From Candidatus Binatia bacterium (lineage in GTDB: Bacteria; Desulfobacterota; Binatia; UBA12015): a stretch of 45,145 bases of DNA. The stretch spans positions 1 to 45,145 of the forward strand of contig JAIEPK010000020.1 of NCBI GenBank assembly GCA_019749875.1, written 5' to 3'. The notes under the pieces are model-generated. The model did not search any database. It was not told the origin of the DNA and worked only from the letters and a program-made list of their open reading frames with translations. Made by a program: the position numbers and the translations under genes. Shown in pieces: positions 5,228-8,525 of the stretch (positions within the stretch are counted from its first letter, which is position 1; the number at the start of each line of letters is the position of its first letter).

Positions 5228-5256
5228 TTGGCCGGTGCGGGAACGACCGTTATCGT
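5228..5256 (+). promoter_or_regulatory. Putative leaderless promoter of dusB
   Basis: TTGGCC (5228-5233), a 17-base spacer and TATCGT (5251-5256) end 6 bases before the GTG at 5263. Transcription would start at or next to the start codon. No Shine-Dalgarno is present, which agrees with a leaderless mRNA. Confidence 0.5.
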
Positions 5257-5262
5257 GCCGGG

Positions 5263-6282
5263 GTGGTCTCCGGGAAGTCGTCGCTCGCCATCGGGCCGCT
5301 GCGCATCGAGCCGGCGCTCGTGCTCGCACCCATGTCCGGGGTCACCGACATGGCCTTCCGGCGCCTGGTCCGAGAGTGCAGCCCGGGCGCGGTCGGTCTC
5401 GTGGTCAGCGAGTTCATCTCCATCGAGGGACTGACACGCAACGACCTGCGCAGCCATCGCATGCTGCGCTTCCATCCGGACGAGCATCCGATCTCGATCC
5501 AGATCTTCGGCGGCGAGATCGACCGCATGGTCGAGGCCGCTGCGATCGTGCAGCAGACGGGCGTCGACGCCGTCGACATCAACTGCGGTTGCCCGGTACC
5601 GAAGGTCGTCAAGCGCGGCGGCGGCGCCGAGCTGCTTCGTCGCGTGCAGCACCTCGAGCGCATGCTGCGCGCCGTGCGGCGTGAGCTGTCGGTGCCGCTG
5701 ACGCTCAAGTTTCGCACCGGCTGGGACGCCGATTCCATCAACTGCGTCGAGGTTGCGCAGATGGCCGAGGCTGCCGGTGTCGCGCTGGTCACGGTGCACG
5801 GGCGCACGCGGGTGCAGCTGTATACCGGCAGTGCCGATTGGGAGCTGATCGGCGCCGTCAAGCAGGCCGTCGGCATCCCGGTGGTCGGCAGCGGCGACGT
5901 GACGAGCGTCGCGGCGGCTCGCGAGCGCATCGACCGCAGCGGCGTCGATGGGCTCGCCATCGGACGCGGCGCGATGGAGAATCCCTGGCTGTTCGGCGAG
6001 ATCGCTGCCGATCTCGCGGGGCGATCCCAGCCCGCGTCCACGATCGACGGCCGCATCGCCGCGCTGCGCCGCTACCGCGAGCTGCTCGACGAGCAGTATC
6101 CGGAGAAGGTGACGTCCGCCCGTCTGCGGGGCATGGCCTGTCGCACGCTGAAGGGTTTCCCGGGCAGCGCTGCGCTGCGCGAAGCGGCGTCGCGAACGCG
6201 CAGCAGCGACGAGCTGCTGGCGGTCGTGGGTGCCGGCGCGCAGGCCGTGCTCGCATCCGAACCCCCGCGCAGCGCAGCGTGA
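5263..6282 (+). CDS. dusB: tRNA dihydrouridine synthase DusB-like
   Basis: About 339 residues from GTG 5263. It reduces specific uridines in the tRNA D-loop using FMN and NAD(P)H. The TIM-barrel signatures are complete: LAPMSGVTDMAFRRL near the N-terminus, QIFGG, VDINCGCPVPKVVKRGGGAE with the catalytic Cys of the N-x-GCP motif, LKFRTGWD, VTVHGRTR, VVGSGDV and IGRGAMENPWLF for phosphate and FMN binding. A C-terminal helical domain follows (from about 250). An upstream in-frame GTG at 5188 would add 25 Arg-rich residues with no family likeness; the 5263 start gives the usual N-terminus and fits the promoter. The stop overlaps the start of the HAD gene (GTGA), so the two are translationally coupled. 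Confidence 0.92.
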   Translation: MVSGKSSLAIGPLRIEPALVLAPMSGVTDMAFRRLVRECSPGAVGLVVSEFISIEGLTRNDLRSHRMLRFHPDEHPISIQIFGGEIDRMVEAAAIVQQTGVDAVDINCGCPVPKVVKRGGGAELLRRVQHLERMLRAVRRELSVPLTLKFRTGWDADSINCVEVAQMAEAAGVALVTVHGRTRVQLYTGSADWELIGAVKQAVGIPVVGSGDVTSVAAARERIDRSGVDGLAIGRGAMENPWLFGEIAADLAGRSQPASTIDGRIAALRRYRELLDEQYPEKVTSARLRGMACRTLKGFPGSAALREAASRTRSSDELLAVVGAGAQAVLASEPPRSAA

Positions 6283-6995
6283 CCGTGTCCGGCCCCGCAC
6301 CGCGCGCGATCCTCTTCGACATCGACGGGACCTTGCTGCGCTCGCGCGGTTCCGCTCGCGTGTTCGACGACACCATGGAGCAGGTTTTCGGCATCCGCGG
6401 CGATCTCGGCTCGATCCGTCCCGACGGGATGACCGATCCGCACATTCTCGCGGCACTTCTGGACGGCCGCACACCGCGCGTCGGATCCGTGACGCCGCGA
6501 CTGCTCGCGACCTTCGAGGTCGCTCTGGCGCGTGCGCTCGCCGCCGCCGTCGCGAGTGGTGCGGTCACCTTCTGGACGCTGCCGGGGGTCGAAGGGCTGC
6601 TCACGGAGCTTTCCCGCCGCCAGGACATGCGGCTCGGCATCGTCACCGGCAACATGCGCGCGACCGCCCGCGTCAAGCTCGGCGCGGTCGCGCTCGACGG
6701 CTACTTCCGGGGCGGCGGCTATGGAAGCGACTCGCCGGTCCGCGACCAGCTGCCCGGCGTCGCCCTGCGGCGGATGAGCCAGGCCGAGGAGATCGTGTTC
6801 GAGCCGCGACACGCGGTGATGATCGGCGACACGCCGCACGATCTGGCGGCTGCGCGCGCACACGGCATGCGCTGCGTCCTGGTCGCGACCGGGCAGTACG
6901 AGCACGGCGAGCTGGCGGCAGCGGGTCCCGACGTCCTGCTGGAAGATCTGAGCGACGGAGCGCGTGTCCTCGACGCGATCCTCGGAGAGGAGTGA
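6279..6995 (+). CDS. HAD-superfamily hydrolase (phosphoglycolate phosphatase-like)
   Basis: A 238-residue HAD phosphatase. Motif I is LFDIDGTLL with nucleophile Asp14 and Asp16, motif II is the Thr in GIVTGN, the motif III Lys lies in the ARVKLG region and motif IV is MIGDTPHDLAAA. A helical cap is inserted after motif I (about residues 20-95), as in the subfamily I phosphatases such as phosphoglycolate phosphatase and beta-phosphoglucomutase. The start GTG overlaps the dusB stop by 4 bases; a second GTG lies 6 bases on. A small phosphorylated metabolite is the likely substrate but cannot be named. The pterin enzyme gene begins 6 bases after its stop, so the three genes form one operon. Confidence 0.88.
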   Translation: MTVSGPAPRAILFDIDGTLLRSRGSARVFDDTMEQVFGIRGDLGSIRPDGMTDPHILAALLDGRTPRVGSVTPRLLATFEVALARALAAAVASGAVTFWTLPGVEGLLTELSRRQDMRLGIVTGNMRATARVKLGAVALDGYFRGGGYGSDSPVRDQLPGVALRRMSQAEEIVFEPRHAVMIGDTPHDLAAARAHGMRCVLVATGQYEHGELAAAGPDVLLEDLSDGARVLDAILGEE

Positions 6996-7001
6996 CTCGA
7001 G

Positions 7002-7487
7002 ATGGCCGGCGGAAGCTTCGAAGTCTACGTGGCGAAGGAGAACCTGAAGTTCAACGCGGCGCACTTCATCGCCTACCCTGGGTTCCGCGAGCGACTGCAC
7101 GGTCACAACTACCAGGTCACCGTGCGTCTCGAGGGAGATCTCGGGCCCGATGGCTACGTGATCGATTTCGGGCTCGTCAAGCAAGCGACGAAGCGCGTCT
7201 GCGACGCGCTCGACGAGTACACGCTGCTGCCGGCGCAGAGCGACTGCCTGCGCATCACCGAGCAGGGCGACTCGGTCGAAGCCATCTACGAGGACGGCTC
7301 GCGCTTCGTGTTCCCACGATCCGACGTGATGCTGCTGCCGATCGTCCACACTTCTGCCGAGGAGCTCGCGCGCTACGTGGCGGGTCAGGTGCGGGCGGAG
7401 CTGCTCGCCGTCGGAGCGCGTCCCTGGCGCAGGCTCGAGGTCAGCGTCGCCGAGACGCGGGGGCAGTCCGCCACCTATTCGGAATGA
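7002..7487 (+). CDS. 6-pyruvoyl-tetrahydropterin synthase family, PTPS-III-like
   Basis: A 161-residue tunnelling-fold pterin enzyme. The zinc ligands are His21 (NAAHF) and His33/His35 of HGHNY. In QueD and PTPS-I a catalytic Cys stands four residues before HGH; here the segment is PGFRERLHGHNY, with Arg at that position and Glu30 next to it. A Glu replacing or accompanying the Cys is known for the PTPS-III group of Plasmodium and diverse bacteria, which turns dihydroneopterin triphosphate into 6-hydroxymethyl-dihydropterin and so bypasses FolB in folate synthesis. An inserted region (VEAIYEDGSRFVFP then LLPIVHTSAEELA) is also of that longer type. Thus folate synthesis is more likely than queuosine. 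It is last in the dusB operon; a good AGGAG lies before its ATG. Confidence 0.8.
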   Translation: MAGGSFEVYVAKENLKFNAAHFIAYPGFRERLHGHNYQVTVRLEGDLGPDGYVIDFGLVKQATKRVCDALDEYTLLPAQSDCLRITEQGDSVEAIYEDGSRFVFPRSDVMLLPIVHTSAEELARYVAGQVRAELLAVGARPWRRLEVSVAETRGQSATYSE

Positions 7488-7601: not shown

Positions 7602-8525
7602 ATGACCGAACGCGTTCGTGAGATCCTGAGCTGGTATGCCGGCAGCAATCCCGGCGTCCTGACCAACCTGGCGCGCATGCTGAACCACGGTGTGCTGGGC
7701 GGGACGGGGAAGATGGTGATCCTGCCCGTCGACCAGGGCTTCGAGCACGGTCCGGCACGGAGCTTCGCCCCGAATCCCGCGGGCTACGATCCGCACTACC
7801 ACTTCAAGCTGGCGATCGAGGCCGGATGCAATGCCTATGCGGCACCGCTCGGATTTCTGGAGGCGGGTGCCGCGGACTTCGCGGGCGAGATCCCGCTGAT
7901 CCTCAAGCTCAACAACAGCGACGTGCTCTACGAGTCTCCGGACCCGTGCTCGGCGCTGACCGGCTCGGTGGGCGACGCGCTGCGCCTCGGCTGTGCGGCG
8001 ATCGGCTACACGATCTATCCGGGCTCCGCGCTGCGCAACGAGATGTACGAGAGCCTGCGCGAGCTCAGCGAGGAGGCGAAGGCCGCCGGGCTCGCCGTCG
8101 TCGTTTGGTCCTACCCGCGCGGCTCGGGGCTCTCGAAGGACGGCGAGACCGCGATCGACGTCGTCGCGTACGCGGCGCAGATCGCGGCCCAGCTCGGTGC
8201 GCACGTGATCAAGGTGAAGCCGCCCACCGCCGCTCTCGAGCAGAAGGAGGCGAAGAAGGTCTACGAGGCGCAGAAGATTCCGGTCGAGACGCTCGCCGAT
8301 CGCGTCCGTCACGTCGTGCAGTCGTCGTTCAACGGACGCCGCATCGTCATCTTCTCCGGCGGCGCCAAGGGCTCCGACGACAAGGTCTTCGACGAGGTGC
8401 GCGGCATCCGGGACGGCGGCGGATTCGGGTCCATCATCGGCCGCAATTCGTTCCAGCGGCCGCGCGAAGATGCGCTCAAGTTTCTCGACACCGTGATGAA
8501 GATCTACGGCGGCAAGATCAAGTAG
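7602..8525 (+). CDS. Class I fructose-bisphosphate aldolase, DhnA/FbaB type
   Basis: A 307-residue member of the DeoC/DhnA aldolase family that cleaves fructose-1,6-bisphosphate to dihydroxyacetone phosphate and glyceraldehyde-3-phosphate through a Schiff base. Visible marks are ILPVDQGFEHGP near residues 40-51, GYTIYPGS at 135-142, VVWSYPRG at 167-174 and IKVKPP at 203-208 with the Schiff-base lysine (Lys206, possibly Lys204). The phosphate loop IFSGGAKG and FGSIIGRNSFQR are near the end. Family enzymes act in glycolysis or gluconeogenesis, and this bacterial type is close to the E. coli FbaB group. A good AGGAG precedes ATG 7602. It stands alone, ended by the strong hairpin at 8549. Confidence 0.92.
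   Translation: MTERVREILSWYAGSNPGVLTNLARMLNHGVLGGTGKMVILPVDQGFEHGPARSFAPNPAGYDPHYHFKLAIEAGCNAYAAPLGFLEAGAADFAGEIPLILKLNNSDVLYESPDPCSALTGSVGDALRLGCAAIGYTIYPGSALRNEMYESLRELSEEAKAAGLAVVVWSYPRGSGLSKDGETAIDVVAYAAQIAAQLGAHVIKVKPPTAALEQKEAKKVYEAQKIPVETLADRVRHVVQSSFNGRRIVIFSGGAKGSDDKVFDEVRGIRDGGGFGSIIGRNSFQRPREDALKFLDTVMKIYGGKIK

Follow-up and report, generated by a model that had tools for sequence, protein, structure and literature searches.

A PTPS-III pterin synthase as a probable replacement for FolB in folate synthesis in the class Binatia

The window, a 45,145-nucleotide stretch of DNA from a Candidatus Binatia bacterium (genome G000), carries an intact gene for what its sequence and a structure model indicate is a PTPS-III pterin synthase, a kind known best from malaria parasites; it is ordinary for its group apart from a second catalytic substitution. 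The explanation that fits best, and in which we place good confidence, is that this enzyme takes the place of dihydroneopterin aldolase (FolB) as a folate bypass in most of the class, with a FolB-like gene probably playing an accessory part in G000. The malaria-type FolB bypass would thereby reach the majority of the genomes sampled from a bacterial class that has been little studied, with PTPS-III, which the NCBI models match only below their cut-offs, as the probable folate enzyme. A literature search for Binatota and folate returned one unrelated paper.

The PTPS-III gene and its active-site motif

The gene and its flanking features are as follows.

5248–6282, forward strand: tRNA-dihydrouridine synthase DusB, upstream of the HAD and PTPS genes
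6291–6995, forward strand: HAD-type hydrolase, phosphoglycolate phosphatase or PpaX-like, with all NCBIfam matches below cut-offs; its start codon is not fixed, and 6291 marks only approximately where the domain's first residues lie
6984–6992, forward strand: GGAGAGGAG, a ribosome-binding-like stretch 5' of the ATG at 7002, picked out by eye and unscored
7002–7487, forward strand: PTPS-III gene, a complete open reading frame of 161 amino acids with an ATG start; His21, His33 and His35, Glu30 (ExxHGH), and Asp71-Glu72 replacing Asp-His
7602–8525, forward strand: class I fructose-bisphosphate aldolase, the downstream neighbour of the PTPS gene

The reading frame at 7002–7487 is intact and its translation agrees with that of an earlier, sequence-only reading, which had noted a missing cysteine and the presence of Glu30; the frame, the motif and the match to the Pfam PTPS family (PF01242, E 7.1e-22) bear out both observations. 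The motif reads GFRERLHGHNY, with Glu as residue 30, His at 33 and 35, and no Cys, and it contains ExxHGH, given as the PTPS-III signature in the available portions of two papers (PMC5041015; PMC5445326). The further statement that Glu replaces Cys holds in part: the Cys is gone and a Glu is in the motif, but in the CxxxHGH register the Cys slot is Arg29 and Glu30 is the next residue, so this is not a letter-for-letter replacement. Neither the QueD-type pattern CxxxHGH (the protein has RERLHGH) nor the PTPS-II (biopterin) pattern CxxxxxHGH is present.

We searched 193 related genomes, comprising 148 of the class (G000–G147) and 45 others of the phylum. All 127 PTPS-III copies, drawn from 126 class genomes (one best match per locus, one of them truncated, with a 128th row, the true QueD of G139, set aside), have Glu30, which is therefore not a chance occurrence. 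The same 127 copies all keep His21, His33 and His35, which we take to be the zinc ligands of the PTPS family.

According to the accessible text of PMC2229834, Plasmodium PTPS yields two products; Glu38 of the P. falciparum enzyme is required in vitro for 6-hydroxymethyl-dihydropterin formation from dihydroneopterin triphosphate, and the Glu38Cys variant gives the conventional product only. PTPS-III is listed as a validated FolB replacement in one eukaryote and eight prokaryotes in the part of PMC3223725 available to us. From the Glu38 work and these validated replacements, the principle of the PTPS-III bypass is thus already known.

Kinship with Plasmodium enzymes and a second substitution

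Sequence, predicted fold and tree all place the protein with the Plasmodium enzymes. The best PDB sequence matches are Plasmodium PTPS (E 2e-37), against E 2.6e-5 for E. coli QueD. An AlphaFold2 model of the 161-residue protein (built from 24 sequences, pLDDT 94.3) was searched with Foldseek, and the top four matches were the same four Plasmodium PTPS entries, including E37A and E37C ‘catalytic residue’ mutants (E 1.8e-21, TM 0.90), with QueD at E 1.9e-6. The P. falciparum and P. vivax enzymes (PDB 1y13, 2a0s) share with the window protein the GFRExLHGHNY motif, the Glu base, the His ligands and an extra middle segment, and align to the model with a TM of 0.90 and 41–42% identity over the structural alignment, but they keep Asp-His (LDHHFILP) where the window protein has Asp-Glu (LDEYTLLP). 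A 96-row tree, made by a quick search with SH-aLRT as its sole support measure and no bootstrap (41 of the 93 inner forks below 80), joins 57 PTPS-III and two Plasmodium rows in a single 59-row clade with SH-aLRT 100, and all 35 QueD-type rows fall outside it. One archaeal and one Nitrospinota CExxHGH row sit within the clade, at its base, on long branches, and their placement is unsure. The assignment to PTPS-III, put forward from the sequence alone, is thus supported. The nearest named records are metagenome-assembled genomes called Deltaproteobacteria (99%), HRbin30 (62%) and Candidatus Binatia (61%).

That the protein is instead a QueD-type enzyme of queuosine synthesis is highly improbable. 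It shares superfamily and fold with E. coli QueD (PTPS-I), and of the two NCBIfam PTPS-family models, both matched below cut-off, QueD scores best (54.6 bits, cut-off 89.25); G000 also has a QueC match of 27.6 bits against a Pfam cut-off of 22, covering only positions 2–62 of 210. Against this, the Cys of CxxxHGH and the Asp-His pair of QueD are both absent from the window protein, which stands outside all QueD rows in a separate clade. Among the 14 genomes of its family (f1) there is no strong QueC; the best match has E 1.3e-6, and the seven rows listed for f1 reach only to about position 62 of 210. Motif, tree and the absence of a strong QueC led us to reject QueD identity.

Several other PTPS-family proteins were seen in the surveyed genomes. 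Family f1 includes a planctomycete-type PTPS-III (L049/L111 in G012, L112 in G006, L209 in G009), which falls in an eight-row group with Planctomycetota (SH-aLRT 98), lies beside the native copy in G012 and replaces it in G006 and G009; horizontal transfer is the probable source. In other families of the phylum, the dual PTPS-I/III motif CExxHGH appears in 26 of 30 QueD-type proteins (L071–L100); FolB is rare in those families (3 of 45 genomes). At L107:3546–4430 (G036:C68), one 295-residue frame holds two tandem PTPS-II-like domains (FGKCxxxxGHGHNY), and G036 additionally encodes a PTPS-III bearing an odd His-Phe pair; two PF01242 matches in one frame of about 295–330 residues recur in other genomes of family f5, of which only L107 was read.

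The second substitution concerns the catalytic triad. PTPS enzymes use a catalytic Cys-Asp-His triad, which the title of a 1995 paper by Burgisser, cited in PMC2229834, places between subunits. Position 72 aligns with the triad His of Plasmodium PTPS and is Glu in the window protein. Across the 127 class copies it is Glu in 91, His in 22 (families f2 and f17), Phe in 13 (f5) and Gly in one, counts that reflect related sequences and not independent events. In the 96-row alignment, all 39 Cys-bearing rows keep Asp-His, and the 57 Cys-less Glu30 rows comprise 12 with Asp-His (including both Plasmodium rows), 32 with Asp-Glu, eight with Asn-Glu and five with His-Phe; loss of His in this set is thus confined to rows already without Cys. 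A cruder, alignment-free count agrees but for four rows: three Cys rows, for which it gives Asn-Glu or Asn-Gly although the alignment has Asp-His, and a row counted as lacking both Cys and Glu, which is probably a PTPS-II domain with its Cys further off.

The His may have been released once Glu took over as the base, possibly with loss of the 6-pyruvoyl side reaction as well, and its loss may point to a dedicated retro-aldol enzyme. We tentatively propose, as a possibility short of an even chance, that a large bacterial PTPS-III branch with rebuilt Cys/Asp-His machinery (Cys gone, Glu30 as base, His changed to Glu72 or the pair to Asn-Glu or His-Phe) is a dedicated 6-hydroxymethyl-dihydropterin synthase that does not form the 6-pyruvoyl side product of Plasmodium. 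The loss of Cys and then His makes it simple to ask by mutagenesis how a single active site picks among its products. The His-to-Glu change has no mention in the literature searched or in the available portions of PMC2229834, PMC5041015, PMC4674097, PMC5445326 and PMC3223725; as this coverage is partial, we make no claim of priority for it.

The 22 His72 rows belong to families f2 and f17, where strong QueC (> 180 bits) is frequent. We considered whether His72 goes together with queuosine, but the association is not tight: four f2 genomes (G060, G070, G094, G117) are without strong QueC, and two f9 genomes (G093, G142) combine strong QueC with Glu72. Many genomes of f2 and f17, along with G093 and G142, have strong QueC yet only a Cys-less PTPS-III, the exception being G139 with its true QueD.

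Distribution of PTPS-III and FolB, and the FolB-like gene of G000

Homologues of the window protein occur in 126 of the 148 class genomes and FolB in 13; G146 and G147 are among the 22 in which no such homologue was matched. PTPS-III without FolB is found in 123 genomes, both in three (G000, G003 and G010), FolB alone in ten and neither in 12, an anticorrelation with a Fisher p of 1.4e-7 over the 148 genomes when shared descent is ignored; probably only two independent switches lie behind it. Nine of the ten genomes with FolB alone come from one genus (f12/g24), and the remaining one, G073, is an assembly of 1200 contigs with no detected FolE. Ten of the 12 with neither are less than 90% complete, and two (G095, G103) have a QueD-type PF01242 match instead. 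FolK was found in 183 and FolE in 141 of the 193 genomes. Like bacterial PTPS-III described as a FolB replacement (COG0720), the window protein has ExxHGH and belongs to a group whose genomes mostly lack FolB, but its own genome differs in having an extra FolB-like gene, and no direct folate operon was seen.

In family f12 (L105, from G034, being the locus read), PTPS is absent from nine of nine genomes, a FolB-domain gene is present in all nine, and seven have two HPPK genes. The one f12 FolB-domain protein scored leans to FolX, with 118.4 bits, below the FolX cut-off, but its 77.6 bits with FolB pass the FolB cut-off.

Beyond the surveyed relatives, genomes could be reached via 20 of 26 PTPS-III loci, three of them again Binatia-like, and FolB was present in three of the 20: the Nitrospinota genome behind the CExxHGH row, and two from Gammaproteobacteria, whose PTPS-III have Asp-Glu. 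On this evidence, the bypass is not needed in these exceptions.

The prediction that the genome itself lacks folB failed. A PF02152 search of G000 found one intact, divergent FolB-domain gene (G000:C633:3714–4043, reverse strand, 60.8 bits), whose product falls below the cut-off of the FolB equivalog model TIGR00525 (65.5 against 72.15 bits), passes that of the FolB-domain model TIGR00526 (57.6 against 45.05 bits), and retains four columns shared with E. coli FolB (Glu, Tyr, Glu and Lys), which we take to be catalytic. Of the other genes named for checking, FolK and two FolE are present in G000, and its single PTPS groups apart from QueD. Of the two findings that together were to count against the bypass, an intact folB and a grouping with QueD-type enzymes, only the first is borne out, by this FolB-like gene, and the second is contradicted by the tree.

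In G000, G003 and G073 a LysR gene diverges from the FolB-like gene, which is followed by glyA (gene calls by a simple script, with SHMT and LysR family matches checked in G000 only), and the module is seen at L104:2343–5128 (G000:C633), L101 and L103; the FolB copy of G010 has no glyA alongside. The arrangement is perhaps an inducible C1/folate supply module, and the FolB-like gene of G000 probably an accessory copy for C1 metabolism.

The match could instead stem from assembly contamination of a genome truly without folB, since G000 has 680 contigs and 3.57% contamination and its congener G001 has no detected FolB. We regard this as quite improbable: the same gene and gene order occur in G003, on a 290-kb contig of a 20-contig genome, which argues that the gene belongs to the family, and in tetranucleotide composition the FolB stretch correlates with the window at 0.973 (pieces of the window itself: 0.976–0.996), though the test is weak because several relatives' stretches likewise reach 0.95–0.99. 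Contamination was rejected as the source on these two grounds.

If the gene is native, FolB could be the real folate enzyme of G000, with PTPS a leftover or in another pterin role. An intact FolB-domain gene that keeps its four columns, and the gene order shared by G000, G003 and G073, speak for this reading, which we nonetheless consider improbable. A search with the G000 protein matched only seven of the 193 genomes, four strongly and already known, with no convincing further copy, and within the class FolB of whatever type is far rarer than PTPS-III. PTPS is moreover well conserved where both genes occur (87% identical to the window protein in G003), and G001, with no detected FolB, has a PTPS that is 99% identical.

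Nor is it at all probable that the protein serves tetrahydromethanopterin or biopterin. PTPS-III members do serve methanopterin in some Archaea, according to the accessible part of PMC5041015, but none of the 193 genomes gave a match to methenyl-H4MPT cyclohydrolase (the control was positive in three archaea among 14 named genomes), and none to aromatic amino acid hydroxylase (control positive in one of 14). The methanopterin role was dropped on the first result and the biopterin role on the second.

It is therefore very likely that a folate bypass operates throughout the class, FolB being additional to it in G000, because PTPS-III and FolB nearly exclude each other, a congener with a 99% identical PTPS has no detected FolB, and the other roles are without support. 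The bypass proposed by the sequence-only reading stands on motif, fold, tree and distribution, and is weakened for G000 itself by the FolB-like gene; with this gene intact, and both genes present in G003 and G010 as well, G000 may not depend on the bypass.

Proposed mechanism and gene neighbourhood

In the mechanism that we propose, FolE would convert GTP to 7,8-dihydroneopterin triphosphate, whose side-chain oxygens would be held by zinc. Glu30 would act as the catalytic base and take a proton, and the C1'-C2' bond would break in a retro-aldol step, giving 6-hydroxymethyl-7,8-dihydropterin directly, with a phosphorylated two-carbon aldehyde as the leaving fragment. FolK would carry the pterin product into folate, and PTPS-III would stand in for FolB in most of the class. 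The activity, substrate, product and division of labour with FolB are all inferred, the mechanism from what is known of the family.

The HAD frame ends six bases before the PTPS ATG, and the two genes are likely co-transcribed. The hydrolase adjoins PTPS in seven other class genomes (families f1 and f6), and at a guess from this adjacency it might clear the two-carbon fragment. A Dus gene lies upstream of PTPS on the same strand, with centres within about 1.5 kb, in 22 other class genomes, a count with no fair denominator, as locus flanks ranged from about 0.2 to 19 kb; as a pointer to folate it is weak at best. The downstream aldolase is near PTPS in few relatives and is probably unrelated. 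No folE or folK stands immediately next to PTPS-III, and no folate-gene operon was seen; folE lies about 14–18 kb from PTPS on the same contig in seven genomes (G016, G022, G028, G042, G048, G055 and G066), and folK 6–10 kb away in three (G031, G057 and G068). A metagenome-assembled record titled ‘Klebsiella pneumoniae’ (L043) has a PTPS-III of Binatia type (73%) flanked, as in the window, by Dus and aldolase genes, and is probably misnamed.
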